From: Frigoribacterium endophyticum
Lineage (GTDB): Bacteria; Actinomycetota; Actinomycetes; Actinomycetales; Microbacteriaceae
Reading direction: 5' to 3'
DNA: 64,000 nucleotides
Assembly: GCF_011759585.1 (NCBI RefSeq)
Contig: NZ_JAAOYV010000002.1
Coordinates: 803,510-867,509 of the forward strand
A model generated the notes under the pieces. The model was not told where the DNA came from. It was given only the letters and a program-made list of their open reading frames with translations, and did not search any database. The translations under genes and the position numbers were made by a program. Shown here piece by piece: positions 8,212-36,145 of the stretch (position 1 is the stretch's first letter; the number at the start of each line of letters is the position of its first letter).

Positions 8212-8219
8212 CGGCCCGT

Positions 8220-8377: not shown

Positions 8378-8383
8378 CACAGT
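8378..8383 (+). promoter_or_regulatory. Possible leaderless -10 element of the epimerase-like gene
   Basis: CACAGT ends 6 nt before the ATG at 8390. It fits the spacing seen at other leaderless genes here but departs from TANNNT at position 1. Confidence 0.35.
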
Positions 8384-8389
8384 GGAGCG

Positions 8390-9367: not shown

Positions 9368-9449
9368 CTCGCGGCGGGTCGGGAGGGGCCGGGGGCTCCC
9401 TGGCGCCCCAGCGGGCCGCCCCGGGCCGGCGTCCCCGGCGGCCGTCGGC

Positions 9450-10070: not shown

Positions 10071-10257
10071 GGTGCCTCCTCGTCGACGGCGGTCGGGCCC
10101 GCCCGTCTCGCTCGTGTCGCCACAGCGAACACCGTCGGGCCAGGAGCGGGCCGAGAGGCCGCTGCACGGTCGCCGACGGGCGCCGGGTCGGTGCCGGCCG
10201 GTGCGGGCCGGGCGTGCCTGCGCGAGGGCCAGCGGGCGGGCGGGCCGGCGGGCGGGG

Positions 10258-10791: not shown

Positions 10792-10851
10792 GCTCCCATG
10801 CTGCCAGGGCAACCCCCTCCGCCACGGCTGGTGCGCCGCCGGGACCGCCAC

Positions 10852-10857
10852 TAGCCT
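10852..10857 (+). promoter_or_regulatory. Leaderless -10 element of the SSAT-like GNAT gene
   Basis: TAGCCT is followed by GGGCCC and then the ATG at 10864. Confidence 0.6.
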
Positions 10858-10863
10858 GGGCCC

Positions 10864-11337: not shown

Positions 11338-11750
11338 CCGCCGCGGGGGCGGCGTCTGGCGACGAGCTGTCCGGCGGCGAGCCGTCGGGCGGCGAGCCGT
11401 CGAACAGCGAGCCCGTCGGCGACCTGACGGGCGCGCCGTCGGCCGGAGACGACTTCGCCTCGCGGGTGGTCAGCGTGGTCGAGGCGATCCCGCCGGGCCG
11501 CGCGATGACGTACGGCGGCGTCGCCGCGGCCGTCGGGTCGCGCTCCTCCCGCGGGGTCGGCCAGGTCATGGCCCACGCGGGGTCGGAGCTGCCGTGGTGG
11601 CGGGTGGTGCGCGCCTCGGGGCTGGCGCCGCAGGGGCACGAGCAGCGCGCCCTGGAGCAGTACCGGGTGGAGGGCACACCGCTGCGCTGGGCGCGGACGG
11701 GCACCTTCCGGGTCGACCTGACCCGCGCCTCCTGGTGGCCCGAGGGCTGA
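11334..11750 (+). CDS. Alkyltransferase-like protein (MGMT fold, no acceptor Cys)
   Basis: A 138-aa protein whose residues 40-138 match the DNA-binding domain of O6-alkylguanine-DNA alkyltransferase: FASRVVSVVEAIPPGRAMTY (recognition helix region), VGSRSSRGVGQVMA (Arg finger region) and LPWWRVVRASG. The last replaces the PCHRV active site, with Trp in place of the methyl-acceptor Cys, the hallmark of ATL proteins that bind alkylated guanine and recruit nucleotide excision repair. The first 38 residues are Ser/Gly/Glu-rich with GGEPS repeats. The GTG overlaps the preceding stop codon. Confidence 0.87.
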   Translation: MTAAGAASGDELSGGEPSGGEPSNSEPVGDLTGAPSAGDDFASRVVSVVEAIPPGRAMTYGGVAAAVGSRSSRGVGQVMAHAGSELPWWRVVRASGLAPQGHEQRALEQYRVEGTPLRWARTGTFRVDLTRASWWPEG

Positions 11751-11826
11751 CCGGCCCTCCGGGCGGCGCCGGCCGGGCCCCGGGTTCCCGCGTGCCCGCG
11801 TGCCTGTCTGCCTCGTCGGGGAAACG

Positions 11827-11903
11827 GAGAGTGATCCGGCCTCCGGGGCCCTGGGAAGCCTGTTCCTCCGGGGCTGACAGCCGGATCACTCTCAAATTTC
11901 GAG
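11827..11903. repeat. Dispersed inverted repeat, family E, copy 1
   Basis: Perfect 14-bp arms, GAGAGTGATCCGGC (11827-11840) and GCCGGATCACTCTC (11880-11893), followed by AAATTTCGAG. The GGATCAC-CTC-AAATTT end recurs at about 56503 and 56650. It lies between the convergent ATL and ABC transporter genes. Confidence 0.85.
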
Positions 11904-11945
11904 GGGGCGAGCGGGTCGCCCGGCAGGAGCAGGAGCGCGACCGGC

Positions 11946-13853: not shown

Positions 13854-15682
13854 GCGAGCACCTCTTCTCGGCTGGGGACGTCGCCGTCGTCGAGCGACGA
13901 GATGACGTAGCGGTAGTGCTCGTTCGTGGCGAGCAGGTCGGAGTGGGTGCCGACCGCGGTGACGACGCCGTTCTCGAGCAGCGCGACGCGGTCGGCGAGG
14001 GTGACGGTCGACGGGCGGTGGGCGACGATCAGCGACGTGGTCGACGCGAGCACGCGCCGGAGCCCCGCCTCGACCCGGGCCTCGGTGTCGACGTCGAGCG
14101 CCGACAGCGGGTCGTCGAGCACGAGCACCGCGGGCCGTGCCGCGATCGCGCGCGCCAGGGCGAGCCGCTGCCGCTGGCCGCCCGAGAGGCTGAGCCCCTC
14201 CTCGCCGACGCGCGTGTCGACTCCCTCCGGCAGCTCGTCGACGAACTGCGCCTGCGCGATGTCGAGCGCCTCGCGCAGCACCCGCTCGGACTCGACGGGG
14301 TCGTCAACCAGGTCGGGGCGGCCGAGCAGCACGTTCTCGCGCACCGACGCGCTGAACAGCGTGGCGTCCTCGAAGGCCATGCCGATGTGGCGGCGCAGCT
14401 CGGCCCGGGTGAGGTCTCGCACGTCGACGCCGTCGAGCAGCACGCGGCCGCCGGTGACGTCGTAGAGGCGCGGCACGAGGGCGAGCAGGGTGGTCTTGCC
14501 CGAGCCGGTCAGGCCGACGAGGGCCATCGTCTCGCCGGGCTCGACGACGAGGTCGACGCCGTTGACGAGGTCGTCGAACTGCGCCGGGCTGTCCTGGTAG
14601 CGGAAGTGCGCGGCCTCGAACTCGAGCCGGCCCTGCGGCTCGGCGATCGTCTCGGGGTGCTCGGGGTCGGTGACGGTGTTGACGCTGTCCATCACCTCGA
14701 AGAAGCGGTCGACCGCGGTGCGGGTGTCGAAGGTCATCGACAGCAGGAACCCGATCGACTCCACCGGCCAGCGCAGCACGGTCGCCGTGGCGAAGAACGC
14801 GAAGAGCTGGCCGACCGTCAGCTGGCCGTCGGCGGCGAGCCAGATGCCGCCGAGCAGGCAGAGCGCGAAGGCGACGTCGGGCACGAGCAGCAGCCAGAGC
14901 CAGAGCTGCGAGATGGCCTTCGCCTTCTCGATCTCGGTGCCGCGCAGGTCGTCGGCGCGCTTCGCGAACTCGCGCAGCGAGTGCTTACCCCGCCCGAACG
15001 CCTTGAGCACGCGGATGCCGTGCACGCTCTCCTCCACGCTCGTGGCGAGGTCGCCGACCTGGTCCTGGCTGCGACGGGCCACGACCGAGTAGCGGTTCTC
15101 GAACGCGAGGCTGACGACGAAGACCGGTATGGAGGCGACGACGAAGATCAGCGCGAGCACCCAGCTGTAGAAGAAGAGCACGACGAAGCCGACGACGATC
15201 GTCAGCAGGTTGACGACGAGCAGCACGACGCCGAAGGCCAGCCAGCGACGGATGAGCGACAGGTCGCTGACCGACCGGCTGAGCAGCTGCCCGCTCTGCC
15301 AGCGGTCGTGGAAGGCCACCGGCAGGTCTTGCAGCTTGGCGTACAGCGCGTTGCGCATGGTGGCCTCGACGTGGGTGCTCGGGGTGAGCACGAGGCGGCG
15401 GCGTGCTGCGATCATGCCCGCCTCGACGACGCCGAGCACCAGCACGACGGCGAAGGCCGGCCACACCTGCGCGGTGTCGCCGCTCGAGAGCGGACCGTCG
15501 ACGAGCAGCTGCAGCACGGCGGGGATGACCAGGGCGACGACGGCGGCCAGCAGCGCGGCGACCATGCCGAGCACGATGCGCGGCAGGGCGGGCGCGACGT
15601 AGGGGCGGAGGCGCGCGAGCGACCGGACGGTCGAGGGGCGACCGGGCTCGGAGCGCGCGGGGGCGGAGGGCTGGCGTGACAT
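13850..15682 (-). CDS. ABC exporter half-transporter A (ATP-binding/permease)
   Basis: Partner subunit of 610 aa with six membrane segments (about residues 35-310) and a nucleotide-binding domain: Walker [15 protein letters not shown] (about 391), canonical signature [17 protein letters not shown] (about 497), Walker [14 protein letters not shown] (about 520). The residue after the Walker B Asp is Asp rather than the catalytic Glu. With the degenerate signature of the partner this predicts one impaired and one active ATP site, as in BmrCD- and TM287/288-type heterodimers. The ATG at 15682 has only a weak TTGGACC upstream. The substrate is unknown. Confidence 0.9.
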
Positions 15683-15983
15683 GGGTGGTCCAAGTGTCGT
15701 GATCGGAGCGCGACGCCGGGTCGCGGCGTCGCGGAGCGTGGAGCGGAGGGCCGCCGGGGCACCTGGGGGGGGAGCGGGGCGGGCGGCCGCCGGAGGTGCC
15801 GGTCGGCGCGGTGGAGGAGGGACGGAGGCGACGGTCGTCGGCTGCGGGCAGCCTCACAGACTATGTGATGCGCCACGCACCCCGCAAGACCAGGTGGTTC
15901 GGACGAACGAGCCGGACGCCGGACGACGGCCGCCCCGCCACGACGGGTCGTGACGGGGCGGCCGGAGAGCGACGCGGGCGGCG
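15683..15983. other. Intergenic region between the ABC exporter and purH
   Basis: A 301-bp gap upstream of the exporter operon and downstream of purH, both on the minus strand. It holds one strong hairpin (15928-15963) and very G-rich DNA at 15740-15800. The less GC-rich run at 15855-15875 (ACAGACTATGTGATGCGCCA) may be the exporter promoter. No gene was recognised. Confidence 0.6.
15928..15963 (-). terminator. Hairpin after purH
   Basis: Inverted repeat with arms GGCCGCCCCGYCACGAC around a GGG centre, with one mismatch. It starts 21 bp past the purH stop. There is no T-tract, so termination is inferred from position. Confidence 0.55.
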
Positions 15984-17639
15984 TCAGTGGAAGAAGTGGC
16001 GCTCCCCCGTGAAGTACATCGTCACGCCCGCGGCCGTCGCCGCGGCGACGACCTCCTCGTCGCGGATCGAGCCGCCGGGCTGCACGACGGCGCGCACGCC
16101 GGCCTCGAGCAGCACCTGCAGGCCGTCGGCGAACGGGAAGAACGCGTCGGAGGCGGCGACCGAGCCGGTGGCCCGCTCCCCCGCCCGGGTCACCGCGAGG
16201 TGGCACGAGTCGACCCGGTTGACCTGGCCCATGCCGACCCCGACGGAGGCGCCTCCGTCGGCCAGCAGGATCGCGTTCGACTTCACGGAGCGGCAGGCCC
16301 GCCAGGCGAACTCGAGGTCGGCGCGGGTGGCGGCGTCGGCCTCCGGCCCGGCGACCAGCGTCCAGCCCTCGGACGAGAAGGCGTCGAACGAGTCGACCTC
16401 CTGCACGAGCAGGCCGCCGGAGACCTGGCGCACCTCCTGCGTCGGGCGGGCGAAGCCCTCGGGCAGGACCAGCAGGCGGATGTTCTTCTTCGTGGTCAGG
16501 ACCTCGAGCGCCTCGGGCTCGAAGGCCGGCGCGATGACGACCTCGGTGAAGATGTCCTTCACGACCTCGGCCATGGCGCGCGTGACCGGGCGGTTCGCGG
16601 CGATGACGCCGCCGTAGGCCGACACCGGGTCGCAGGCGTGGGCGCGGCGGTGCGCGTCGGCGATCGCGTCGGCGGCGTCGGGCGAGGCGACGGCGATGCC
16701 GCAGGGGTTGGCGTGCTTGATGATCGCGACGGCCGGCTCGGCGAAGTCGTACGCGGCACGGAGGGCCGCGTCGGCGTCGACGTAGTTGTTGTACGACATC
16801 TCCTTGCCGTGCAGTTGCTCGGCCTGCGCGATGCCCGTGCCCGCGGGCGAGGCGTAGAGGGCCGCCGCCTGGTGCGAGTTCTCGCCGTAGCGCAGGGTGG
16901 CGAGGCGGTCGCCCTCGAGGGCGACGTGCTCCGGGAAGCCGACCCGCGCCTCCTCGGTGCCTGCCTCGGTGCCCGCCTCGGTGCCCGCGGCGGCGTGCTC
17001 GGCGCGGACTCCGACGTTGTCGGCGAACCAGGCCGCGACGGCCGTGTCGTAGGCGGCGGTGTGCGCGAAGGCCTCGCCGGCGAGGCGCTGACGCTGCGCG
17101 AGGGTCGTGCCGCCGAGCGTGAGCGACTTCACGATCTGCGCGTAGCTGGCGGGCGAGACGGCGATCGCGACGTTGGCGTGGTTCTTCGCCGCGGCGCGCA
17201 CCAGGGCGGGGCCGCCGATGTCGATGTTCTCGACCACCGCCGGGGCGGCGGCGCCCGAGGCGACGGTCTCGACGAACGGGTAGAGGTTGACGACGACGAG
17301 CTCGAACGCGGCGATGCCGAGGTCGGCGAGCTGCTGCTCGTGCGACTCGAGGCGGAGGTCGGCGAGCACCCCGGCGTGGATGCCCGGGTGCAGCGTCTTG
17401 ACGCGACCGTCGAGTGACTCGGGGAATCCGGTCACGGCGCTGACGTCGGTGACCGGGAAGCCCGCGTCGCGGATCGTGGAGGCGGTGGAGCCGGTCGAGA
17501 CGATCTCGACGCCGGCGGCGGAGAGCGCCTCGGCGAGGTCGAGCAGGCCCGTCTTGTCGCTGACGCTGATCAGCGCCCGGCGCACCGGCACGGCGTCGCG
17601 GTCGCGGTAGAGGGCGGGGTCGATGGCGTGACCGCTCAT
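15984..17639 (-). CDS. purH: Bifunctional AICAR transformylase/IMP cyclohydrolase
   Basis: Catalyses the last two steps of de novo IMP synthesis. The 551-aa protein has the N-terminal MGS-like cyclohydrolase domain ([47 protein letters not shown]) and the C-terminal transformylase domain, with LRYGENSHQ, the catalytic Lys-His in IIKHANPCG, and FVPFADGLQ-like [16 protein letters not shown] small insert with three Gly-Thr-Glu-Ala units ([12 protein letters not shown]) sits between domains and is encoded by a 12-bp repeat. The ATG overlaps the purN stop (ATGA), giving tight coupling in the order purN-purH. Confidence 0.96.
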
Positions 17640-25118: not shown

Positions 25119-27044
25119 ATGACCTCAGCTGACCGCCCCACCGGGCCACCTCGTCCTGCTCTCCTTACCGCCCTCCTGATCGTCCTCGCCCTCGTGGCCG
25201 GGCCGCTCTGGCTCGCGGCGCCCGCCGCGGCCGTCACGGGCGCGGGCCTCGGCACCGGCCACCTCTGGCGCGGCGACGGCGTCTCGTACCTCGGCACCTA
25301 CCGACTCGACGACGGGCGTCAGGCCTTCTGCCTCGAGGCCGGCAAGTCGTCGCCCGTCGGCAACCACTACGACACGGAGACCGGCACGGAGGTGGTCGGC
25401 GTCTCGACCGCCGACCACGCTCGCCTGGCCTACATCGCCCGCACCTGGGGCGACACCACCGACGCCGACACGGCCGCTGCGGGGCAGCTCGCGGTGTGGA
25501 CGATCACGGGGCTGAACGGGCACACCCAGCGGTACTACGCGGGGCGCGCCAACGAGCGCTGGCCGATCGTGCTCGACCGGTCCAACGAGATGCTGGCCGA
25601 GGCGACGGCCGCAGCGTCGACCTCCGTCACGGCGTCGACCTCCGTCGAGCTCCGCGACGACGGCACGGGCACCCTCCGCTCCGACCTGACCGTCGACCGG
25701 GTCGGCGGCGGGCCCGAGCTGCTCACGCCGCAGCACGACGGCACCGTCGCCCTCACGGGCGGGGCGTTCGCCGACGGCTCGACGACGGCGGTCGTGCAGA
25801 ACGGCGTCGACCTCGACTTCCGCGCGACCGGCGACCTCGCCCAGGTCGAGGTGTCGGCCGACACACGCTTCGACGGGCTGCCCTACGGGCGCATCGTCAC
25901 GGCCGGAACGAGCCCGGCCGGCTCGCAGCGCATCCTCTTCTCCGGCGGCACCAGCGTCGAGGCCTCGGGCGCGGCGAGCGCCGAGGCCCTCTCGCCGCTG
26001 CCCTTCCGCCCCCGGGTCGAGACCCGCACCAGCGACGTCGTCGCCGAGCCCGGCACGACGGTCACCGACCAGCTCACCGTCGACGTGCTGCCGGGCGAGG
26101 GGCTCCTCTCGGAGTGGGGCCGCCACGACGTCGCGGGCACGTGGCAGCCCGTCCCCGTCACCGTGCGCAGCCGCCTCCTCGGCCCCTTCCGGGAGCCCGT
26201 CGCGCGCGCCGACGACTGGCCCTCCGACGCGCCCGTCGTCTGCGACGTGAGCGTCGTCGTCGACGAGGGCCCCGGCACCTACACGACGCCGGGCTGCGAG
26301 CTGCCGAGCGGCGGCTGGTTCACGTGGGTGGAGACGATCGACCCCTCCGACACCCCGGTCGACGCGGGCCGAGACCGCGTGCAGGGCTGGCGCTCTCCGT
26401 TCGGCACCGCCTCCGAGACGACCTTCGTCCCGTGGGCGCCCGAGGTCTCCACCACCGTCGTGGGGGCCGACCAGGTCGAGCCCGGCGCCTGCGTCAGCGA
26501 CGAGCTGACCGTCTCCGAGTGGAACGGCCAAGCGTCGGAGGCGCGGGTCGACACCGTCCTCGTCGGTCCCTTCCCCGAGGCCCTCGCCGCCGGTCACGAC
26601 CTCGGCCCGATCGCGGAGATCGACGAGGCCCTGCTCGCCGGCCGGGCCAGCACCACGGTGAGCGGCGACGGCACCTACGAGTCGCCGTGCCTCCCGGTGG
26701 AGCGCGAGGGCCACTACGTGTTCCTGTTCACGTCGGAGGGCTCCGTGCCTGACGACGACGGCGTCCAGGTGGTGCCCGCGTTCGCCGACACGACCGTGCA
26801 CCTCGCGGAGTCGTTCAGCGTGGTGGCCCCCGAGGTCCCCGTCGAGACGCCCGCGCCGGCGGCGGCACCGGCGGGGCTGGCGTTCACCGGGTCGGACGGC
26901 AGCCTGCAGGCGGGTGCGGCGGCGCTGGGCGTGACGCTCGCCGGGGCCGTGATGCTCGTGACCTCCCTGGTGCTCCACGTCCGTCGCCGCCGACGCGGCC
27001 ACGGAGACATCGCCGAGGAGCTGCTGGTGACGGGCGCTCCCTGA
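25119..27044 (+). CDS. Thioester-domain surface protein with LAxTG sorting signal
   Basis: A 641-aa cell-wall protein. The signal peptide spans about residues 15-38 (ALLIVLALVAGPLWLAAPAAA). The next 110 residues look like a thioester domain (TED): RQAFCLEAGKSSP supplies the Cys and AAAGQLAVWTITG the Gln that form an internal Cys-Gln thioester able to bond covalently to host or surface amines. Two or more Ig-like modules with paired Cys follow (VVCDVSV...TPGCELPSG and GACVSDEL...SPCLPV). The C-terminus has Pro/Ala-rich sequence, LAFTG, a membrane helix and RRRRRG, a class E sortase signal. Function as an adhesin is inferred; the thioester must be shown experimentally. Confidence 0.85.
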   Translation: MTSADRPTGPPRPALLTALLIVLALVAGPLWLAAPAAAVTGAGLGTGHLWRGDGVSYLGTYRLDDGRQAFCLEAGKSSPVGNHYDTETGTEVVGVSTADHARLAYIARTWGDTTDADTAAAGQLAVWTITGLNGHTQRYYAGRANERWPIVLDRSNEMLAEATAAASTSVTASTSVELRDDGTGTLRSDLTVDRVGGGPELLTPQHDGTVALTGGAFADGSTTAVVQNGVDLDFRATGDLAQVEVSADTRFDGLPYGRIVTAGTSPAGSQRILFSGGTSVEASGAASAEALSPLPFRPRVETRTSDVVAEPGTTVTDQLTVDVLPGEGLLSEWGRHDVAGTWQPVPVTVRSRLLGPFREPVARADDWPSDAPVVCDVSVVVDEGPGTYTTPGCELPSGGWFTWVETIDPSDTPVDAGRDRVQGWRSPFGTASETTFVPWAPEVSTTVVGADQVEPGACVSDELTVSEWNGQASEARVDTVLVGPFPEALAAGHDLGPIAEIDEALLAGRASTTVSGDGTYESPCLPVEREGHYVFLFTSEGSVPDDDGVQVVPAFADTTVHLAESFSVVAPEVPVETPAPAAAPAGLAFTGSDGSLQAGAAALGVTLAGAVMLVTSLVLHVRRRRRGHGDIAEELLVTGAP

Positions 27045-27136: not shown

Positions 27137-30100
27137 TCAGCCGCGGGGCACCGTCACGGGCACGGTGACGCCGTCACCGAGGTGCACGTGGGCACGACCC
27201 GGTCGGGGGCGAGCCGACGTCGCGCTCCGGGCCAGCTGCGCACCGACGAGCTCCCCGTCCGAGGTCGCCCTCGGGCTGAGCACCGCGCCGCAGCGGTTCC
27301 GGCGGAGGTCGGCGTGCCAGCCCATGAAGCCGACGCCGAGGTCGGCGGCCGACCCCGCGGCCACCAGGGCACCGGGCCCGTCGGCGCACGAGCGCACGAA
27401 GTCGGCGAGCCACGCCGCCGCCGGGGCGTCCTTGACGAGCTCGGCGTCGTCGACGACCAGCACCCGACCCGCCGGTGCCTCGTCGCCGAGGACGGCGTCC
27501 AGCTCGTCGGCGCGGAGGTCAGAGCCGCGCAACACGGCCACCACCCCGGGCAGCCCGTCCAGGCTCCGGAGCGGTGACGGCCTCGGCGTGACGACGACCA
27601 CCTCGAGCCCCTGGGCGAGGAGGGAGCGCACCATGCTCACGAGGACGGTGCTGCGTCCGCTCCGCGGCGGGCCGCCGACGAGGAACGTGCCCGGAGCGTC
27701 GGCGAGGCGCGGGCCGACCGGCACGAGGTCGTCGCCGCCGATCCCCACCATCGCGAAGGCGGCGCCGAGGGCCGCGGGGTCGTGACGCGACCACGCGCCG
27801 TCGAAGGTCAGGTCGCCCTCCAGCCGGTCGAGCCGGAACGGCCTGCGGCCGGGCGGCACGGCGAGGTCACGGCGGACGGCCTCGCCCGCCGCCGCGCGGA
27901 GGGCCTCGGCCTGGGCGCTGCCGGAGGGGTCGGCACCGACCACCGCCACCTGGGTCTCGGCGCCGCTGACGGTGTCCGCTCCGCGCCCCGGGCCGGGCTC
28001 CTCGGGCATCGATCGCGGGTCGAGCCCCGCGAGGCCGTAGTCGGCGCGGTCGGCCATGCGCAGGACGAGCTTGCGCTCGACGAGCGTCGCCATCCTGCCG
28101 CTGACGAGGAGTCGGTCCCCCGTCACGACGAGGTGCACGCCGACGGCCGCCCCCTCGCGCAGCAGGAGCGTGACGAGCTCCACCGGCTCGCCGAGGTCGA
28201 GGTCGCCGAGGCTGGCGACGAAGCCCTCCCAGGGGTCGATCATCAGCACGACGTGGGGCAGGCGGTCCTCCTCCGGAGCGGCTCGTCGCTGCTCCGTGAC
28301 GCTGGCCCAGCTGCCGGTGGCGAGCACCGTCTGCCGCCGGAGCGTCTCCTCCACGAGGCGTGCCAGCAGGCGGCGCGCCCGCTCGACCTCCGTGCGGCGC
28401 ACGACGGCGCCGGTGTGCGGCGCCGACGCGAGCGGGAGCAGCGCCCCGCTGCCGCAGTCGATGCCGTAGAGGTGCACGTCGGCGCTCGAGGTGTGGCGGA
28501 TGATCGACGCCGCCAGGGTCCGCAGCACCTGCGACCTCCCGCTCCGGGCGGCGCCCGCGACGAACAGGTGCCCGTCGACGTCGAGGTCGAGTGCTGCTGT
28601 CCGCCGGGCCTGTTCCCGAGGGTGGTCCTCCAGCCCGAAGGGCAGGGGCGGCAGGGTGCGCGGTGGCCCGCCGCCTCCGGCCTCGGCACCGACGAGGTGC
28701 TCCAGCTCGACGAGGGCAGGCAGCGCGTCCAGCCAGGGCCGGTGCGGCCGCTCCCCGCCGCGGAGCGCCTCGGCCTCCACCACGGCGGCGACGAACTGGA
28801 CCAGGTCGGTCGTCTCGTGGTCCTCGACGGCGGCGGTCGCGGGCGGCCGGGGCGCCGGCCCGGCCGCCCCGTCCCACGACAGCCGGGCCGACCAGGTGCC
28901 GTCCGGTCGGGAGTCGCGCTCGGCGCGGCCGCCGACACGCCCGGCCTGGAACGGCACGAGCGCCCCCGCGCCGAGGCGCACCAGGGCGCGCCCCGGTGCG
29001 GACCGGGGGATGCGGGAGGCGTCGGCGGCGTCGATGACGTCGGTGCTCTCGCCGGCGTCGGTGACGCGCAGGGCGATGCGCAGGTTGGTGTTGGCCCTGA
29101 TCTCGGACGACACCACTCCCGACGGTCGCTGCGTCGCGAGCACGAGGTGGATGCCGAGGGAGCGCCCCCGCTGGGCGACGTTCACGAGCCCGGTGACGAA
29201 GTCGGGCAGCTCCCGGGCGAGGCTCGCGAACTCGTCGATGACGATGAGGAGGCGGGGCAGGGTCGGGAGCGTTCCGCCCTCGGACCGGCCACGCGCCTCC
29301 TCGTAGTCCTCCAGGTCCTTGGCCTCGGCGAGCGCGAGCAGCTGCTCCCGACGGTGGAGCTCGGCGCCCAGGCTCGTCAGCGCCCGCTGGACGAGGTGCG
29401 GGTCGAGATCGGTGACCATGCCCACGGTGTGGGGCAGCGGGCCGCAGTCGCGGAACGCGGCGCCGCCCTTGTAGTCCACGAGCACGAAGGTCATGGAGTC
29501 GGGGGCGTTGGAGGCGGCGAGCGAGGCGACGACGCTCTGCAGCAGCTCCGACTTGCCCGAGCCCGTCGTGCCGGCGACGAGGGCGTGGGGTCCGTCCCGC
29601 CTCAGGTCGATCGAGAAGGGACCGTCCACGCCCTCGCCGAGCAGCACCTCGGTGCTGGGCGCTCTCTCGGCCCAGCGCGCGAGGACGGCCCTGCCGCTGG
29701 GGCGGTCGAGGCCGAGCACGTCGAGGAGGCGGGAGGACGTCGGCAGTCCGCCGGCGTCGCCCCCGTCGTCGACGTCGACGACGGGGGCGAGCGCCCGCGC
29801 GACGAAGTCGTGCCAGCCGGCGGGCAGGGCGTCGACCCGCACGTGCTGGACGTCGGCCTCGCGGTGGGCGGAGAGCTCGTGGGCGCTGCGCCCGGCCTGC
29901 ACGACCGTGACGCACTCCTCGGGCAGTGACCGTCGGTCGGCGTCGAGGCAGAGTGCGACGACCCCGACGCCCGGTCCGTCGCGGAGCACCGTGACGAGGC
30001 CCGGCAGCCCCCGGAGCCGGCGTGACCCGTCGACGACGACGAGCACGTCGGGGGCGTCGAGCACGGCGCCGCTCGACTCCCGGCGAGCCCGCTGTCGCGC

Positions 30101-31546
30101 GTCGACGACGGCGGCCAGCTCGGTGAGCCTCCGGGCGACGGACTCGGAGTCGTTGCCGAGGCGGACGCGGCTGTCCGCGGCTCCCTCGTCGGGGCGGGCG
30201 TGGGGCACCCAGGCGAGCCAGCCCCAGTGCTCCTCGGCGTCGCGGTCCGTCAGCACCACGACCATGAGGTCTCGAGGGCTCTGGAGGACGCAGAGCTGGG
30301 CCACCATCCACGCGGCGAGCGCGCGACGTTCGGGCGTGCGCCCGTGCAGCCCCACGACGCCCCGGTCGGCGAGCGCGACGGTGACGGGCACGGCCCGCGC
30401 GGGGCTGGCGACGGTGCGTCGGTGCTCCAGCAGGTCCGGGTCGTCGAGGGTGACGCCGGAGGGCAGGTCGGCGACGCCGATCCGCACGGTCAGGTGGTCG
30501 GGGTCGTCCCGGCGCCGTTCCCAGAGCCGGGCGCGACGCCGGACGGCCAGGTCGAGGAGCGTCGCGGCGTCCGGGCAGCTGGACCGCAGCTCGTCCTGCC
30601 GACGCACGACCGCCTCCGCGGCGTCGGCGGCCACCGCCTCGCGGGTGGCCGCGTGCGACGCGAGGGCCTCGCGGTGCGTCACCCGGCCGTTGCGCCGGTC
30701 GTACAGGTAGTTGCCGATGAGGATCACCGGCGAGAGCAGTCCGAAGACGAAGAAGGTCGGGTTGTCGAGCACCAGCACCATGACGCCGCCCATGACGAGC
30801 GGGGCGGCGGCGGCGACGATCGGCAGGGGGCGCCGTGGGGGCGCCTGCGGCTGCGCCGGGTGCCGGAAGGCGGTCGTGGGGGGCTCGGGCAGGAGTCGCG
30901 GTGGGCGGGCGTGCTCCAGTCGCCCTCCGCCCTCGGCGAGGCCGATCGCGGCGGAGGCCGTGCCGGCGTCCGCGACGCCCAGCAGCACCTCCCCCAGCTC
31001 GACCGCCGACGACGGCGTCAGCGCGATCGTCGTCGTCAGCGGGACGCCGTCGACGGTGACGGGCGGGACGTCGGGGTCGTCGCAGGCCACGGGAGTGATC
31101 GAGAAGCGCGATGCTCCGTCGAGCTGCACGAGGGCCGCGACCGGGGCGACTCCTCGCGCGGCGAGACGGACCGTCGCCTCGGGCGCCGATCCGACCACGA
31201 CGGTGCCGGGATCGACGTGGAAGACCGTCCCGGCCCCGGGGCCGCCCACGATGCGGATGCTGGGCAGGTCGGGCGGCAGTGCGGCGACGCCGGGAGGACC
31301 GCCGATCGTGAGGACGCTGCCCTCGAGCACCGTTCCCTCGGCGATGCGTACGCTCTCGGCGACGCGGGCGCCGTCGACCGTGACGGCGGTGCCGAGAGCT
31401 GCGGCATCCGGACCGTCGGCGCGGATGCCGACCAGCGGTGCAGCCTGTGCGACGAGCTCCCCCACCGTGGTGTCAGGCGAGGTCTCGAACACGACGTCGG
31501 CCGAGGCGCCCGTCGCTCCGTCGCGGACGGTGACCGTGAGCCTCAC
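27137..31546 (-). CDS. eccC: Type VII secretion FtsK/SpoIIIE-type ATPase (EssC/EccC-like)
   Basis: The membrane-anchored motor of a type VII (WXG100) secretion system, about 1469 aa. Residues 1-200 look like ubiquitin/FHA-type domains (SIRIVGGPGAGTVFHVDPG), an EssC-like feature. Two membrane helices lie at about 250-285. Three FtsK-type ATPase modules follow: module 1 has canonical Walker A LVAGTTGSGKSELLQ (about 660) and Walker B LLIVIDEFASLA (about 769); modules 2 and 3 have Lys-to-Arg Walker A loops (GAARSGRSQ, about 998; GGPPRSGRST, about 1294), so probably only the first hydrolyses ATP well. The GTG overlaps the preceding stop (GTGA) with AGGG upstream. It is the last gene of a seven-gene operon beginning at 35335. 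Confidence 0.9.
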   Translation of the reverse strand: MRLTVTVRDGATGASADVVFETSPDTTVGELVAQAAPLVGIRADGPDAAALGTAVTVDGARVAESVRIAEGTVLEGSVLTIGGPPGVAALPPDLPSIRIVGGPGAGTVFHVDPGTVVVGSAPEATVRLAARGVAPVAALVQLDGASRFSITPVACDDPDVPPVTVDGVPLTTTIALTPSSAVELGEVLLGVADAGTASAAIGLAEGGGRLEHARPPRLLPEPPTTAFRHPAQPQAPPRRPLPIVAAAAPLVMGGVMVLVLDNPTFFVFGLLSPVILIGNYLYDRRNGRVTHREALASHAATREAVAADAAEAVVRRQDELRSSCPDAATLLDLAVRRRARLWERRRDDPDHLTVRIGVADLPSGVTLDDPDLLEHRRTVASPARAVPVTVALADRGVVGLHGRTPERRALAAWMVAQLCVLQSPRDLMVVVLTDRDAEEHWGWLAWVPHARPDEGAADSRVRLGNDSESVARRLTELAAVVDARQRARRESSGAVLDAPDVLVVVDGSRRLRGLPGLVTVLRDGPGVGVVALCLDADRRSLPEECVTVVQAGRSAHELSAHREADVQHVRVDALPAGWHDFVARALAPVVDVDDGGDAGGLPTSSRLLDVLGLDRPSGRAVLARWAERAPSTEVLLGEGVDGPFSIDLRRDGPHALVAGTTGSGKSELLQSVVASLAASNAPDSMTFVLVDYKGGAAFRDCGPLPHTVGMVTDLDPHLVQRALTSLGAELHRREQLLALAEAKDLEDYEEARGRSEGGTLPTLPRLLIVIDEFASLARELPDFVTGLVNVAQRGRSLGIHLVLATQRPSGVVSSEIRANTNLRIALRVTDAGESTDVIDAADASRIPRSAPGRALVRLGAGALVPFQAGRVGGRAERDSRPDGTWSARLSWDGAAGPAPRPPATAAVEDHETTDLVQFVAAVVEAEALRGGERPHRPWLDALPALVELEHLVGAEAGGGGPPRTLPPLPFGLEDHPREQARRTAALDLDVDGHLFVAGAARSGRSQVLRTLAASIIRHTSSADVHLYGIDCGSGALLPLASAPHTGAVVRRTEVERARRLLARLVEETLRRQTVLATGSWASVTEQRRAAPEEDRLPHVVLMIDPWEGFVASLGDLDLGEPVELVTLLLREGAAVGVHLVVTGDRLLVSGRMATLVERKLVLRMADRADYGLAGLDPRSMPEEPGPGRGADTVSGAETQVAVVGADPSGSAQAEALRAAAGEAVRRDLAVPPGRRPFRLDRLEGDLTFDGAWSRHDPAALGAAFAMVGIGGDDLVPVGPRLADAPGTFLVGGPPRSGRSTVLVSMVRSLLAQGLEVVVVTPRPSPLRSLDGLPGVVAVLRGSDLRADELDAVLGDEAPAGRVLVVDDAELVKDAPAAAWLADFVRSCADGPGALVAAGSAADLGVGFMGWHADLRRNRCGAVLSPRATSDGELVGAQLARSATSARPRPGRAHVHLGDGVTVPVTVPRG

Positions 31547-32184
31547 GTCGCCCTGACGACGCTGATGCCGTCGACGAAGGCTCGCGCCACCGGCACCTTC
31601 ACGGGGACGAACTCGGGCGGGCCGACGTCGCACGTGACCCGGAGGTCGAACGGCCCCGAGCGGAACGCGAAGATGCTGGTGACCGTGATGCCGCCGTCCA
31701 GCTCGGCGTAGCGCAGCCCGTAGACACCGAGGCCGAGGGAGTCGGTGGTCACGTCCTCGAGGACGGGCGGCTCGATCCCCGGCAAGTCGCTCTCGAGGAC
31801 GAGCTCGCGGAGGGTCGCCTCCCGGTCACCGTAGACGAGGCCGAACTGGATCCGGAGCAGGCTGAGCTCGCTGCTCAGCGAGGGCAGGTACATGAACTTG
31901 AGCTCATTGGGCGTCTGCCAGGTCGCGAGCCGGTCGAGCACCTTGACGAGCCACTTCTTGCCGGCCCGGGTCGGGGCCGCCGTCCGGGCGACGACGTCGC
32001 GAACGGTGGCGGCGATCCACGACCTGGCGGTGTCGTGCCCCTGGTGGGGCCATCGGGCGGGCAGGGCGATCCAGAGCCCGGGGTCGTGCTCGACGAGCAC
32101 CTCCCACCCGTCGGCGGTGCGGGGATCGAGGCCGTCGTCGCCCGTCGGCTGGATGTCGTCGGAGGTGAGTTCGTGGTGCGTCAT
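31543..32184 (-). CDS. Hypothetical protein of the type VII cluster (213 aa)
   Basis: Not recognised. It is predicted soluble, with no signal peptide or membrane helix; the C-terminal half is beta-rich and ends VARAFVDGISVVRAT. Overlap with the ATPase gene (GTGA) and with the cluster ties it to secretion, perhaps as a chaperone or accessory factor like EspG in position only. AAGGA lies 8 nt before the ATG at 32184. An alternative ATG at 32226 overlaps the upstream stop (ATGA) and would add 14 residues. Confidence 0.68.
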   Translation of the reverse strand: MTHHELTSDDIQPTGDDGLDPRTADGWEVLVEHDPGLWIALPARWPHQGHDTARSWIAATVRDVVARTAAPTRAGKKWLVKVLDRLATWQTPNELKFMYLPSLSSELSLLRIQFGLVYGDREATLRELVLESDLPGIEPPVLEDVTTDSLGLGVYGLRYAELDGGITVTSIFAFRSGPFDLRVTCDVGPPEFVPVKVPVARAFVDGISVVRAT

Positions 32185-32222
32185 GCCTGTTCCTTCTCGA
32201 GAGGGGCGGGCGGGTGCGCCCG

Positions 32223-32888
32223 TCATGTCGTGGGTCGATCGGTGATGACGCGCCCCTGGTCGTCGAGCCAGCGAACGGTGGTCATCATCGCGTCGAAGAG
32301 CTCGACCAGCGCGTCGGCCACCGCCTGGGTCTCGTCCTCCGAGACGTCGGGCGATGCCGCAGCGCCGAGCTGGGCCACCAGCAGTGCGAACGAGATCACG
32401 ACCTCGTCGTCGCCGGGAACTCGGCTGAGCACCGTCTTCGTCCTCAGGACCCGCCCGACGCCGATGAGCGAACGGCCCGCGGTCGAGAGGGGTGCCTCCA
32501 GGACGACGGCTGCTTCGCCACCGACGGTCAGCGCCGCGCGGCCGAGGCCGCCGTGGTGAGCTAAGTCCGCGGTCATGCCGTGCCGCTTCTCCTGTGAGAG
32601 CGAGGTCGCCGACACCACGATGCTCATCGCGAGGCCGCAATCCGGCAGGACACCAGCCGTGACGTAGCTGTCCAGCACGTCTGTTGCAGCGCGGGGTCCG
32701 GAGGCAGAGAGGGCCGCCACCGCTCGACCGACCTCAGCCGCGAGGTCAGCGCGGTTGAGCTGTGTCTCGATCAGTGGCAGCTGATCGAGAATATGTCCGG
32801 GCAAGCGAAGCACGCCTGGCGGGACGGCCAGGCGGTACGAGACCCCTCGGGCGCCTCCCGCCCGCGGCACGAACGTCTCAGCGGTCAT
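32223..32888 (-). CDS. Hypothetical protein of the type VII cluster (221 aa)
   Basis: Not recognised. It is soluble, without signal peptide or membrane helix. The alpha/beta pattern includes LIETQLNRADLAAEVGRAVA and VVLEAPLSTAGRSLIGVGRV; the C-terminus has WLDDQGRVITDRPTT. Its ATG overlaps the stop of the membrane-protein gene (ATGA), and its own stop overlaps a possible ATG of the next gene, so it belongs to the esx operon. Base composition is less GC-extreme than in housekeeping neighbours. Confidence 0.68.
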   Translation of the reverse strand: MTAETFVPRAGGARGVSYRLAVPPGVLRLPGHILDQLPLIETQLNRADLAAEVGRAVAALSASGPRAATDVLDSYVTAGVLPDCGLAMSIVVSATSLSQEKRHGMTADLAHHGGLGRAALTVGGEAAVVLEAPLSTAGRSLIGVGRVLRTKTVLSRVPGDDEVVISFALLVAQLGAAASPDVSEDETQAVADALVELFDAMMTTVRWLDDQGRVITDRPTT

Positions 32889-33397
32889 CCCGCGGCCTCC
32901 GACAGGCCCGTCTCGTGACCCGACCGCGCCACGGCCTCCCTGAGCAGAAGCCCCACCGTCACGATGCCGCCGGCGAGGAGGCAGCTGAGGCCACTGACTC
33001 CCCACAGGGCGATCGCCACGGAACTGGGCTCAGGACCTGGGCCGAAGAGCACGTGCGCCATCGTCAAGGACGGCACGGCCGACATCACCCAGAGGAACGC
33101 GGAGAGACCCGGCTGCAGAAGATGGACGTGCGCGGTAGGAAACCGGATGTACCGGACGAGCACGGCGGCCTGCAAAGCGATTCCGGTGGTGAGGAGGACG
33201 AGCAGGCCCAGGAGCGCTGACACGCTGAAGTTCATGGTCTCCCCGCCGTCCCCATGCCGTCCGTTCGCCATCAGGACGAGACGACGGATGATCATGAAGG
33301 CGGCTCCGACGCCGAAGTTCCAGAGCCCTGCAATCCGAACCAGGAGAACCGAGCGACTCAGGACGGATTCTGAGGGACTGTCCGAGACCTCCCGCAT
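32885..33397 (-). CDS. Four-helix membrane protein of the type VII cluster
   Basis: A 170-aa protein with four hydrophobic segments: about residues 19-42, 57-82, 94-114 and 128-152. Strongly charged loops separate them. It starts at the ATG that forms TGATG with the stop of the long candidate substrate; a GTG at 33403 is also in frame. No family was recognised. Coupling to the candidate substrate and its multi-pass topology make an immunity or membrane-accessory role plausible, but this is inference. Confidence 0.66.
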   Translation of the reverse strand: MREVSDSPSESVLSRSVLLVRIAGLWNFGVGAAFMIIRRLVLMANGRHGDGGETMNFSVSALLGLLVLLTTGIALQAAVLVRYIRFPTAHVHLLQPGLSAFLWVMSAVPSLTMAHVLFGPGPEPSSVAIALWGVSGLSCLLAGGIVTVGLLLREAVARSGHETGLSEAAG

Positions 33398-34671
33398 CAC
33401 CACGGAGTCCCGTTCACGAGTCGAAGCGTCGTAGCCTCCCGCAGGTCCCCCAGGAGGGGCTCAGCCCACCCTGTCGCCGTGTCAGCGGCGCGCGCCGTGG
33501 TGACGACCAAACTCGTCGCTCTCACTGTGGTCGTCGCGTTGAGCAGGAGGTCGAGTTCCGCCATGGCCCGTGATCCGGTGTGGGCCAGGGCCGCCCCGGA
33601 CTCGCGGCTCCACATGAAGAGGCGGCCTAGTTCAGGATCACCGAGAGCCCGGATCTTCGCCGCGAGGCTCAAGGGGGCCTTCATGACCGCTCGATGCTCG
33701 CCGTTCACGGCCTTGAGGGCTGTCTGAAGCGGCACTCCTCCTCGTTGCAGCTCAGCGACCCTCGCGAGACCAAGCTTGGCGACCGAAGTCTTGGCTGCAG
33801 TCTTGAGGACCGCGCCACCGACGCCGAAAGTAGCGAGCGAGACGACACTGATGCCCAACTCGAGGAGGCTTCCCGTGCCCGCGGCTGCTCGAGCCGCTTC
33901 CGTGGTCGTGGACAGGATCATCACCGCCATCGCTGGCCAGGCGATCCAGGCAGTGCCGGGGAAGGCCAGAGCAGCGACGACCAGAAGCGCTCCCACCCAG
34001 CTCAGGATCTCCAGGACGTCCTGGATCCACCAGTCGTTCTCCTCCATCCACGTCCGGAAGGCGTCGTAGGCGGTGCCTGCGGCCCCGCGGACGTCGTCCC
34101 ACCACGAGTCGCCGAGGCCGTCGGCGCCGAGGTCGTCGAAGCAGGCGATTGCCGCCGTCGCGGCGGCCTCGAGGTCGGTGACGGCGTCGTCGACCTGACG
34201 GCCGTGCTTCACCACCCGTCCCGATGCTTCCTCCTCGCGGAGGCGCTGCACGCGAGCGAGCTCCTGGTAGTCGAGCTGCGCCTCCTCGCTCGTCGCCAGG
34301 AGGGCCATGCCCTCGTAGCGGTCGGCGAGCACGGTGGCTGCGTCGCGGTCGGCGACCGCAGTCTCGTGCTCTCGGACGGCCGGGCCGGCCTGCTCCTGCG
34401 CGTGCCGCAGGGCAGTCGCGTAGGTCCGGAGCGCGTCGGAGGCGCCGACGTACCGCCGGTGCACCTGCCGCAGCTGCGTCTCGACCTCCCCCGCCTTCGC
34501 GAGGAACGCCTCGATCGCATCGCTCTGTGCGGCCTCCACGTCGAGTTGGTGGAGCCCCTCAGCCGCGGACGCGATCAGTTCGGCGGTCTGCCCGAAGCGC
34601 GTCGCGGCGGCCGACACCATGTCGGGGTCACCCGCGACACCTGCCTTGGACAATGCGCCGTCCACCCTCAC
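33397..34671 (-). CDS. Candidate type VII secretion substrate (424 aa)
   Basis: Residues 1-195 are helical and Ala/Glu-rich: GVAGDPDMVSAAATRFGQTA resembles the start of actinobacterial T7SS-signal proteins, followed by long coiled-coil-like helices and DSWWDDVRGAAGTAYDAFRTW. Residues 220-320 form a hydrophobic Gly/Ala-rich region with two or three membrane-capable helices (WVGALLVVAALAFPGTAWIA). The C-terminal 100 residues match no toxin I know. The layout of WXG100-like N-terminus plus membrane-active middle suggests a secreted effector. The GTG overlaps the upstream stop (GTGA), and its own stop overlaps the four-TM gene. Confidence 0.72.
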   Translation of the reverse strand: MRVDGALSKAGVAGDPDMVSAAATRFGQTAELIASAAEGLHQLDVEAAQSDAIEAFLAKAGEVETQLRQVHRRYVGASDALRTYATALRHAQEQAGPAVREHETAVADRDAATVLADRYEGMALLATSEEAQLDYQELARVQRLREEEASGRVVKHGRQVDDAVTDLEAAATAAIACFDDLGADGLGDSWWDDVRGAAGTAYDAFRTWMEENDWWIQDVLEILSWVGALLVVAALAFPGTAWIAWPAMAVMILSTTTEAARAAAGTGSLLELGISVVSLATFGVGGAVLKTAAKTSVAKLGLARVAELQRGGVPLQTALKAVNGEHRAVMKAPLSLAAKIRALGDPELGRLFMWSRESGAALAHTGSRAMAELDLLLNATTTVRATSLVVTTARAADTATGWAEPLLGDLREATTLRLVNGTPW

Positions 34672-34967
34672 GAGGACGCCTCCTCCTCCGGCAACGCGGC
34701 GGCGAGGCCCTCGTCCGCCGCCGTGAACCCGTCAGCGATGGACGTCGCGGACGTGCTCAGTCCACCGATCTCGTCGCTCAGGACCCGCCGGGTGTCGTCC
34801 CAGCTCCGGGTGAAGGAGTCGATCCGCTGCGCGAGGCGGGGGTGGCCGAGGTGCTCGGGCGAGACCGTCGCCGCTCCAGGGGCGTCGAAGACGGTCTTGA
34901 CGCCGCTCAGGGTCGTGGACAACCGCCGCAGCGCCTCAGCGTCGAACGACAGGGTCGCTCTGGTCAT
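34668..34967 (-). CDS. EspC/WXG100-like small secreted protein
   Basis: A 99-aa helical-hairpin protein beginning MTRATLSFDAEALRRLSTTL. It has a central SFTRSWDDTRRVL and the C-terminal acidic tail LPEEEASS. Size and position between a WXG100 gene and a long substrate fit the EspC/DUF2580-type partner proteins of ESX systems, though no WXG motif is present. AGGAG lies 6 nt before the ATG. It overlaps the next gene by 4 bp (GTGA). Confidence 0.75.
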   Translation of the reverse strand: MTRATLSFDAEALRRLSTTLSGVKTVFDAPGAATVSPEHLGHPRLAQRIDSFTRSWDDTRRVLSDEIGGLSTSATSIADGFTAADEGLAAALPEEEASS

Positions 34968-34983
34968 GTGTGCTCCTCAGGAA

Positions 34984-35013
34984 GGTGGCCATGCCGTCGC
35001 CGGCACGGCCACC
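34984..35013 (-). terminator. Attenuating hairpin between the WXG100 gene and the rest of the operon
   Basis: 13-bp arms GGTGGCCATGCCG and CGGCACGGCCACC (one mismatch) around TCGC. It could reduce read-through so the WXG100 transcript is most abundant. Confidence 0.55.
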
Positions 35014-35018
35014 GGGGT

Positions 35019-35046
35019 GGTCAGCGGTCAGCGGTCAGCGGTCAGC
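35019..35046. repeat. 7-bp tandem repeat over the WXG100 stop codon
   Basis: Four exact GGTCAGC units. In the gene direction each is GCTGACC and contains TGA; the 7-bp period places stops in all three frames. Confidence 0.9.
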
Positions 35047-35335
35047 GGAGGCTGGCGGCCAGCTGCTCGTCGGCCGCCTGCAGGGTCTCGGCCGCGTTCT
35101 CGAGGAACCGCGCCATGCTGTCCAGGGCAGCGATGGTCGTGCTCGCACCGGTGCTGAACTCGCCGTACGTGGTCGCGAACGCCTTCGAGGAGCTGTCGGT
35201 CACGTAGCCCGAGGCCACCAGGTTGTCGATCTGCCCCTTGAGGCGTGAGAGCTGCTCCTCGATCGACGCCTGCCCGGTGCGCAGGTGGGTCGCCTGCGTG
35301 CGCAGGTCGTCGTAGGTCACGGTCACGTTGGCCAT
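35042..35335 (-). CDS. WXG100 family type VII secretion target
   Basis: A 97-aa ESAT-6-like protein: two amphipathic helices joined by a turn, here LVASGYVTDSSSKAF, where SGY replaces the usual WXG; the downstream helix is YGEFSTGASTTIAALDSMAR. The length is exactly in family range. AGGAG lies 5 nt before the ATG. It is first in the operon leading to the EssC/EccC ATPase and is followed by an attenuating hairpin. Expected to be exported as a dimer, alone or with the EspC-like neighbour. Confidence 0.88.
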   Translation of the reverse strand: MANVTVTYDDLRTQATHLRTGQASIEEQLSRLKGQIDNLVASGYVTDSSSKAFATTYGEFSTGASTTIAALDSMARFLENAAETLQAADEQLAASLR

Positions 35336-35434
35336 GGGTTCTCCTGTCTCGTCGAGCCGTCAGGAATGACGACTGCCATGAATATTCCACATGAGACAGA
35401 CTGGTCGCACCACTTTCCACAGAATGGACGAGAA

Positions 35435-36145
35435 ATGACCAGAAGAAGGAGCCTGGGGAGGCGCGGGGCGCCACCCGAGAGCCCGATCGTCGTCGACGCC
35501 GCGGCCGTCGCTGCGCTGCGCGACCAGGGCCTGCTGTCACGGGTGCAGACGCTGCCTCCGCCGCCTCCCGAGGGTCTGGTCACAGCCGTTCCCGCGGCGG
35601 CCGCCGTCATCCCGCCAGGCCCCGCCGTGCCCCCTCCCCGACGGCACGTGCCCTCGCCCGCGCCCGCCGACCTCGACGACCCCGACGACCTCGACGACCT
35701 CGACGACCTCGACGTGACGGTCCTCCGTCCGCGCTCCTACGAGCTCGTCCTCCCCGACGGCGAGGGCGTCCCTGTCGACCGCGACGGCGTCGTCGTGGGC
35801 CGGCGCCCGCGGCACGCCGCGCCGCCACCCGGCGTCTCGACCGCCGCCGCCACGGCCGCGACAGCCCCCGCAGCAGCCCTCACCATCGCGCCAGCTCCCC
35901 CGGCGTCGATCACCGTCACGGACGAGACACGTCAGCTGTCGCGCGCCCACTTCCGTGTCTGGGCCGACGACGCAGGGGCCGTGGTGATCGACGACCTCCA
36001 CTCCGCGAACGGCACGACGCTCCTCCGCCCCGACGGAGGGCTGGTCACGGTCGAGCCCGGGGTCGGCACGCGGCTGACGCCCGCCGACACGATCGTCGTG
36101 GGCCACCACCGCTTCACGCTCCGGCGGTCACGCCCCGCCCCCTGA
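35435..36145 (+). CDS. FHA domain protein divergent from the type VII operon
   Basis: A 236-aa protein. The N-terminal 100 residues are disordered and Pro/Ala/Asp-rich, with DLDD repeats from about residue 78. A C-terminal FHA (phosphothreonine-binding) domain starts at about residue 100: RSYELVLPDGEGVPVDRDG, VVVGRRPRH, then a roughly 40-residue Ala/Pro insert, then QLSRAHFRVW, HSANGTTL and VVGHHRFTLRR. The Gly-Arg, Ser-x-x-His and Asn-Gly core residues are present despite the insert. FHA proteins often regulate type VII secretion, so it is probably part of this cluster. The intergenic region 35360-35434 is locally AT-rich and likely holds both promoters. Confidence 0.84.
   Translation: MTRRRSLGRRGAPPESPIVVDAAAVAALRDQGLLSRVQTLPPPPPEGLVTAVPAAAAVIPPGPAVPPPRRHVPSPAPADLDDPDDLDDLDDLDVTVLRPRSYELVLPDGEGVPVDRDGVVVGRRPRHAAPPPGVSTAAATAATAPAAALTIAPAPPASITVTDETRQLSRAHFRVWADDAGAVVIDDLHSANGTTLLRPDGGLVTVEPGVGTRLTPADTIVVGHHRFTLRRSRPAP

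Follow-up and report, generated by a model that had tools for sequence, protein, structure and literature searches.

The window analyzed here, 64,000 nucleotides (nt) of the Frigoribacterium endophyticum genome (3.32 Mb in 6 contigs), contains at positions 27137 to 36145 a real and conserved variant of the type VII secretion system (T7SS), with open reading frames throughout. With slightly more confidence than doubt, this locus is taken to encode a small T7SS unit that belongs to none of T7SSa, T7SSb and T7SSd but to a lineage of its own, and which would export a 424-amino-acid (aa) effector by way of adaptor proteins and carry a 172-aa immunity protein. In such a unit an EssC-like ATPase would be the membrane motor, gated by a 97-aa WXG100 protein, and the WXG-like N-terminus of the effector, together with a 99-aa Lap-like protein, would constitute the export signal. 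A 213-aa protein, and probably a 221-aa protein, would serve as cytoplasmic adaptors, keeping the effector out of the maker's own membrane until it reaches the ATPase. The membrane hairpin of the effector would act on or cross the membrane of a rival cell, with the variable C-terminus carrying the activity, and the 172-aa membrane protein would protect the maker.

Seven genes lie on the minus strand with an FHA gene diverging from them, as proposed in a preliminary description of this DNA, and the WXG100, FtsK_SpoIIIE and FHA domains are confirmed by Pfam. In order from the WXG100 gene, the minus-strand genes encode the 97-aa protein (35042..35335; EsxA/TsxA type; WXG100 expectation value (E) 8.9e-16, TIGR03930 47.4 bits, above its cut-off of 44.85), the 99-aa protein (34668..34967), the 424-aa effector candidate (33397..34671), the 172-aa membrane protein (32885..33403), the 221-aa protein (32223..32888), the 213-aa protein (31543..32184) and the ATPase (27137..31546; FtsK_SpoIIIE E 7.7e-60). 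Four of the six junctions overlap by 4–7 nt (99/424 aa, 424/172 aa, 172/221 aa and 213 aa/ATPase), and the remaining two have gaps of 74 nt (WXG100/99 aa) and 38 nt (221/213 aa). The ATPase likely starts at the GTG at 31546, overlapping the stop of the 213-aa gene, rather than at 31633, which makes it 1469 aa long. The middle genes had also been described as less GC-extreme than their neighbors. This difference is real and is confined to the 424-, 172- and 221-aa genes, where third-position GC is 0.84, 0.82 and 0.82; elsewhere it is 0.96 (213-aa gene), 0.94 (ATPase), 0.92 and 0.96 (the two small genes), 0.88 (FHA) and 0.96 (each flanking gene). Such confinement suits a substrate module that has had a separate history, and by their common low value the three genes behave as if they formed one module.

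Do the two soluble proteins belong to the machine or to its cargo? A 12-row profile of the 221-aa family was searched in 60 whole genomes of a single family, the Microbacteriaceae (the sample behind all genome-wide counts given here), and yielded 26 matches, 23 at E ≤ 1e-5, in 16 genomes. (Those dropped, with E > 1e-5, were G043:C3:42152, from a module already counted, and two weak ones at E 0.003 and 0.008.) For the effector N-terminus, a 17-row profile found 30 matches in 17 genomes, corresponding to 29 genes once a split gene had been merged. Each of the 23 genes of the 221-aa family has an effector gene no farther than 8 kb away; for 22 the distance is at most 3 kb, as it is for every one of the 15 matches outside the query alignment. 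Proximity to one of the 38 strongest ATPases (≤10 kb) was found for 17 of the 23, and for six it was not. Seen from the effector side, 22 of 29 genes are followed within 3 kb by a 221-family gene of the same strand, another two have such a gene within 10 kb but differently arranged, and five have none within 10 kb. These whole-genome counts are the fairer test, since many of the fetched loci were chosen for a 221-family match. Among the fetched stretches, ATPase-free modules consisting of an effector and a 221-family gene occur at L044, L091, L092, L093, L094 and L106, with a Lap-like gene in all but L044. The L044 module lies in the window's own genome and comprises an effector paralogue, a membrane protein and a 221-family gene. 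Because the 221-aa family travels with the effector even where no ATPase is nearby, its member in the window looks, as far as sequence and genomic linkage go, like a cargo-side protein rather than part of the core machine. At another locus (L105, G021:C1:2955000-2974000), a single ATPase has two tandem effector modules behind it, and the 213-aa and 221-aa families are represented there by three and two genes.

The preliminary description held that the 213- and 221-aa proteins resemble nothing known. This gives way in that the 221-aa protein belongs to an effector-linked family and the 213-aa protein has a recognizable predicted fold. A weak structure model of the latter matches Eag/Mog1/PsbP-type folds, with Tsi3 and TplEi/Tli4 among the matches, and an Eag/Mog1/PsbP-like fold is proposed for it. 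On account of this predicted fold, the 213-aa protein moves towards the cargo side as well. Its family is less widespread than the 221-aa family, with ten members at eight loci, two of which (L092 and L093) have no ATPase. The 221-aa model gave no assignable fold, and a comparison of the two family profiles from cleaned alignments showed a weak link (E 4.7e-4, probability 32%). The 213-aa protein had no DUF1795 match in Pfam at E ≤ 1, and searches with two sets of family members returned only three (set A3, n=17) and seven (set A7, n=27) unrelated weak families. Sequence searches of the PDB with both family profiles gave nothing meaningful, and EspG/EsaE-type chaperones were absent from the 50 fold matches listed for each model, which does not speak against them.

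Co-variation offers a view of how the proposed adaptors might divide the work. Over 27 pairs (excluding an edge fragment at L051 and the first effector of L103), divergence in the 221 family was correlated with that of the effector N-terminal part (rho 0.31, p 0.0005), less with the C-terminus (rho 0.17, p 0.0015) and least with the hairpin (rho 0.07, p 0.15). Hairpin shielding is thus best proposed for the 213-aa protein; for the 221-aa protein the co-variation favors contact with the effector N-terminal part instead. Both proteins could alternatively be immunity proteins for the effector, which is considered unlikely. Their genes do lie downstream of the effector gene, and several T6SS (type VI secretion system) immunity proteins have a Mog1-like fold, Tsi3 and TplEi/Tli4 being among the matches of the 213-aa model.

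The putative effector itself has a WXG-like N-terminus, matching T7SS_signal at E 7e-6, half a bit under the cut-off, and membrane-like segments at about residues 215–284. At least two such segments are found within the first 360 residues in 27 of the 29 frames of the family. Compared with the paralogue in the same genome, identity falls from 0.65 in the N-terminal part to 0.47 around the hairpin and 0.28 C-terminal of it, and the effector appears from these sequences to be polymorphic, with a conserved N-terminus and a variable C-terminus. Pfam recognizes no toxin domain in the window protein, T7SS_signal being the sole match for it and for three relatives. The effector of L047 presumably ends in an HNH-like motif; two genes downstream of that effector is a Tdi1-like immunity gene (PF08906 5.3e-5, under the cut-off). 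In the maps of fetched loci, 25 of 28 effector matches are preceded at no more than 1 kb by a WXG100-like gene of the 99-aa family (the exceptions are L041, L042 and L044), and one member of the 99-aa family also matches the WXG100 profile (E 8.6e-7).

The 172-aa protein, with four hydrophobic segments by hydropathy, is a candidate immunity protein. Membrane proteins occupy the same place after the effector in L045, the corresponding locus of a second Frigoribacterium species, and in the ATPase-free module L044. A different reading would make the 172-aa protein the missing channel component and the 424-aa protein structural rather than a weapon. Both proteins do have membrane-like segments, and the window effector is without a recognized toxin domain. 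Nevertheless, this reading is improbable, since an effector, a membrane protein weakly resembling the 172-aa protein and a 221-family gene occur together at L044 without an ATPase, and toxin-like C-termini are seen elsewhere in the effector family.

The motor of the proposed unit falls under the cut-offs of the models for both major T7SS ATPases. The EssC and EccC models align across most of its length, and it scores 480.6 bits for EssC (TIGR03928, cut-off 778.4), 381.6 for EccCa (509.15) and 282.9 for EccCb (346.55). For scale, the EssB-adjoining ATPase of G055 reaches 1266.4 for EssC, and an ATPase of G019 encoded about 10 kb away from EccB/EccD reaches 906.4 for EccCa; the second ATPase of the window's own genome passes both EccC cut-offs (EccCa 741.7, EccCb 670.5). 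The protein has two membrane helices (residues 241–259 and 264–282), followed by three P-loop nucleoside triphosphatase (NTPase)-like domains as read from the translation. It had been described as EssC-like with an FHA/ubiquitin-like N-terminus. The extra N-terminal domains are borne out, and a ubiquitin-like domain is probable: residues 1–85 align by hhalign with five EccD ubiquitin-like starts at E 2.2e-4 and a probability of 45%, against 0.3% and 0.6% for crossed controls. The FHA part fared less well. Residues 127–222 (P0001 numbering) match the FHA relative Yop-YscD_cpl (PF16697) at E 2.2e-4, under the cut-off, and the FHA reading comes down to this one match because a profile comparison with stand-alone FHA domains gave no link (probability 2%, E 0.023). 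A degenerate FHA-like domain is possible. The residues that we take to bind phosphothreonine in FHA domains were not seen in the window ATPase; they are present in the ATPases of L058, L060 and L062, as they are in the FHA protein that the window encodes separately.

In a tree of 50 ATPases, all 13 T7SSa sequences fall on one side of a branch, as do the three T7SSb and the two T7SSd-like sequences (each with support of 100 by the SH-like approximate likelihood ratio test, SH-aLRT). The window ATPase belongs to a set of nine (support 99) with those of L045, L047, L051, Curtobacterium pTCL, F. faeni AS3.2 and three Streptomyces plasmids. The tree came from a quick IQ-TREE search with SH-aLRT support only and was drawn with midpoint rooting; branches between T7SSa and T7SSb are long, and ten rows, including the window, have skewed composition. 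The T7SSd-like label was given on the basis of an adjoining kinase and large gene, the tree being without Olsenella or Bifidobacterium sequences. By this phylogeny the ATPase forms a lineage of its own, apart from those of T7SSa, T7SSb and T7SSd-like systems. Of the earlier suggestion that the locus is a minimal or hybrid system, the notion of a variant system holds, and "hybrid" is not the best word, because the ATPase forms a separate lineage. The nearest other set in the tree, its sister, consists of eight ATPases beside an exported protein with an immunoglobulin (Ig)-like match (L048-L050, L052-L056). These represent another family of Microbacteriaceae T7SS loci, composed of an ATPase, the exported protein (the Ig-like match being that of L049) and a divergent membrane protein, with a lipoprotein-like gene in seven of eight, WXG100 genes in seven of eight and an FHA gene in seven of eight.

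If the ATPase is a motor, where is its channel? The absence of the ESX channel genes from its neighborhood, noted from the outset, is upheld: neither Pfam nor NCBI models found any known channel gene at the locus. The standard eccB-D-E-mycP set that might pair with this ATPase was also sought in the rest of the genome and was not found. EccB (PF05108) has no match in the genome; the search itself works, since nine of the 60 family genomes do match, although none of 14 control genomes did. EssB (PF10140) is likewise without a match in the genome and occurs in one of the 60 (G055), as well as in the B. subtilis control. That one occurrence, L095 (G055:C1:262000-281000), is a Bacillota-type T7SSb in a Microbacteriaceae genome, in which EssB (2.2e-57) adjoins an EssC-grade ATPase and whose closest plasmid relatives are from Enterococcus. 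EccE (PF11203) had no match in the window's genome, but the control genomes also gave none. The one EsaA match, at 63.4 bits against a cut-off of 122, lies on a different contig; of the control genomes four match, and one of these passes the cut-off.

EccD (PF19053) is found in 11 of the 60 genomes, the window's own among them, at 44 bits against a cut-off of 30. This EccD lies about 458 kb away, beside a true EccC, a WXG100-like gene and an FHA protein, and scores 86.6 bits for TIGR03920, under the cut-off of 94.95. Its presence raises the alternative that the window ATPase borrows EccD, and perhaps a mini-EccB-like protein, from this second, T7SSa-type locus as its channel. The distance, the EccC standing next to it and the lack of an EccD match in 14 of 15 comparable genomes make such borrowing quite unlikely. 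These 15 genomes, in each of which such an ATPase stands no more than 10 kb from a 221-aa relative, include none with EccB, one with EccD (the window's own) and one with EssB, and the EccD and EssB cases are each beside another ATPase (for EssB, a true EssC). The second T7SS of the genome (L043, G000:C2:1281000-1300000, at 7382-16135) encodes the true EccC, the EccD-like protein (442 aa), a 385-aa FHA-bearing protein, a WXG100-like gene and a second small gene; neither an EccB match nor a subtilase match was found there. A 344-aa protein of this locus is presumably MinD-like, and a 116-aa single-helix protein looks to us like a truncated EccB.

A candidate for a second machine component comes from the relatives. 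A family of membrane-anchored proteins adjoins the ATPase or the effector at five loci of the nine-member set to which the window ATPase belongs (L041 2918-4495, L042 8271-9713, L121 4597-6036, L040 7316-8248 and L064 ~10135-11220). It is found in Streptomyces, Curtobacterium and F. faeni, in two forms linked by profile (probability 94%, E 1e-7), and the Streptomyces forms presumably have a LysM-like outer part (with no Pfam match in two examined). No member was seen in the searched stretches of the window locus, L045, L047 and L051, and the window ATPase may have a hidden partner.

The locus is not confined to one strain. As a comparison of synteny across the Microbacteriaceae revealed, Frigoribacterium sp. 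PhB160 (L045) has the same gene order and the same flanks on both sides, with an ATPase 66% identical and an FHA gene likewise divergent from the WXG100 gene. A Curtobacterium sp. TC1 plasmid carries a seven-gene counterpart with six families in common, a slightly different order and another membrane protein. (As duplicates of L045 and L047, L063 and L096 were not counted, and L096 was kept out of the tree as well; the Streptomyces loci come only from plasmid records.) No close relative of the ATPase was found in viral contigs. Plasmid records gave no match to the 221-aa protein at E ≤ 1e-3, but this search is insensitive, because the Curtobacterium plasmid has a divergent relative (28% identical) that went unmatched. 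The absence of any known channel gene at the locus and the lower third-position GC of three middle genes might suggest that a larger T7SS once lost its channel genes here and left a defective operon behind. This is very unlikely, given that all frames are open, order and flanks are kept in the second Frigoribacterium species, the same ATPase lineage occurs in Curtobacterium and Streptomyces, and EccB is found in none of the 15 sampled genomes with such a locus.

Some observations nevertheless weigh against the secretion unit proposed here. The 213-aa gene is machine-like in composition and may belong more to the machine than to the cargo. The family link of the 172-aa protein is weak: the idea that the 172-aa, L045 and L044 membrane proteins form one family was rejected after a direct test, which gave a weak link to the L044 protein (BLASTP E 0.002) and no sequence match to that of L045. 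Finally, no mycosin was found at the locus and none above the cut-off in the 60 genomes, though subtilases beside EccB (in G003, G017, G019, G025, G037 and others) also fall under it. This weakens the absence of mycosin, as do the genome's own subtilases elsewhere, including one of 247.5 bits at C2:470583, away from both T7SS loci.

How does this unit compare with known systems? It shares with the T7SSb of Bacillota (Ess/Yuk) an EssC-like ATPase with extra domains before the helices, a single EsxA-like WXG100 protein and a polymorphic effector with a Lap-like partner. However, the ATPase is far below the EssC cut-off, the genome has no EssB match and only a sub-cut-off EsaA elsewhere, and the ubiquitin-like part seems to be fused to the ATPase instead of forming a separate EsaB. 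With T7SSa (ESX) it has in common the WXG100 family and an FtsK/SpoIIIE ATPase with several NTPase domains, but the locus lacks EccB, EccD and mycosin, and the ATPase is under the EccCa and EccCb cut-offs and has the extra N-terminal domains. The T7SSd of Olsenella and Bifidobacterium, as presented in PMC11217815, is similarly actinomycetotal, has few components and has an ATPase with an extra N-terminal part. The window locus differs from it in having neither a TsdD kinase nor a large TsdI-like protein, FHA phosphothreonine residues were not seen in its ATPase, and the tree separates it from the kinase-bearing T7SSd-like ATPases. The kinase profile, which finds kinases in L046, L055, L056, L060, L098 and L102, has no match in the whole window, and apart from the ATPase there is no gene of the size of a TsdI-like envelope protein between 18000 and 43000. 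(Gene clusters C12 and C18, considered as a large envelope protein, proved to be RNA polymerase subunits and were rejected.) T7SSd-like loci do exist in Micrococcales: L046 (G035:C2:197000-216000) and L122, on Rothia terrae plasmid p2, each have an ATPase, proteins of about 1000 and 450 aa and a kinase, and the Rothia plasmid additionally encodes an Rhs protein.

On the cargo side, the LXG toxins of T7SSb require small WXG100-like Lap partners, according to PMC9600955. The 99-aa protein resembles these Lap1/Lap2 factors in being a small WXG100-like protein encoded upstream of an effector, but the window has one Lap-like gene, plus one or more Mog1-fold proteins that are outside the Lap system. 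The 213-aa protein recalls the Eag chaperones of T6SS (DUF1795; EagT6, SciW) in its predicted fold and in sharing an operon with a membrane-domain effector. It differs from them in lacking a DUF1795 sequence match, the secretion system is unrelated, and no PAAR domain was seen in the effector by Pfam (prePAAR was not itself searched for). Eag chaperones are described as keeping the transmembrane helices of effectors in a pre-insertion state up to the time of loading (PMC7773334; PMC12881460).

Garrett et al. 2024 define T7SSc to T7SSj, T7SSd, with its kinase and giant envelope protein, being the only new actinobacterial type among them, and the main text of that paper contains no mention of Microbacteri or Curtobacterium (PMC11217815). 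In Zhang et al. 2012 (PMC3482391), PsbP/MOG1-like genes are listed with T6SS toxins, with an adaptor role suggested, and other components are listed for T7SS; a 2025 paper calls the PsbP/MOG1-like domain diagnostic of T6SS (PMC12419801). A literature search for T7SS with Mog1, DUF1795, Eag, PsbP or LpqN, or with Microbacteriaceae genera, turned up neither such a locus nor a Mog1-fold T7SS protein among the titles and abstract openings of the matches listed. More tentatively, and with doubt outweighing belief, a general scheme may be put forward, in which T7SS and T6SS would both use Mog1/PsbP-fold chaperones for membrane-hairpin effectors and the substrate modules would move as units, even to places without a motor. 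The T7SS lineage in this scheme would consist of a motor and a WXG100 protein, without EccB, EccD or EssB, and the module of a Lap-like gene, a membrane-hairpin effector and one or two Eag-like genes.

The actinobacterial T7SS variants on record fall into those with the EccB/C/D/E set (T7SSa) and those with a kinase plus a giant envelope protein (T7SSd). A lineage spanning Frigoribacterium, Curtobacterium and Streptomyces raises the question of how little a T7SS needs beyond its ATPase. The effector-linked proteins, one of them Eag-like in its predicted fold, offer a testable explanation of how T7SS effectors that bear membrane helices stay out of the producer's own membrane, and the 221-aa family provides a marker gene for effector modules far from any machine.

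The remaining features surround the operon. The FHA protein (236 aa; Pfam FHA E 3.6e-5) is encoded on the plus strand at 35435..36145 and presumably keeps the GR, SRAH and NG residues of the phosphothreonine site. An earlier call with a start at 35285 would overlap the WXG100 gene; with the ATG at 35435 as start, the divergent genes are 99 bp apart. This interval (35336..35434) is by gene layout a probable control region, and a promoter scan of it found no consensus promoter. One flank has a UvrD/PcrA-like gene, as read from its translation. The other begins with a 641-aa surface protein (25119-27044, plus strand; thioester-domain match at E 0.006, under the cut-off, a LAFTG-like tail and a C-terminal membrane segment), followed by genes for a RecQ-type helicase, a SnoaL-like protein and succinyl-CoA ligase. 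As a part of the T7SS, this thioester-type neighbor was dropped, since among 24 loci it clusters only with L045; it is kept beside the locus in the two Frigoribacterium genomes.

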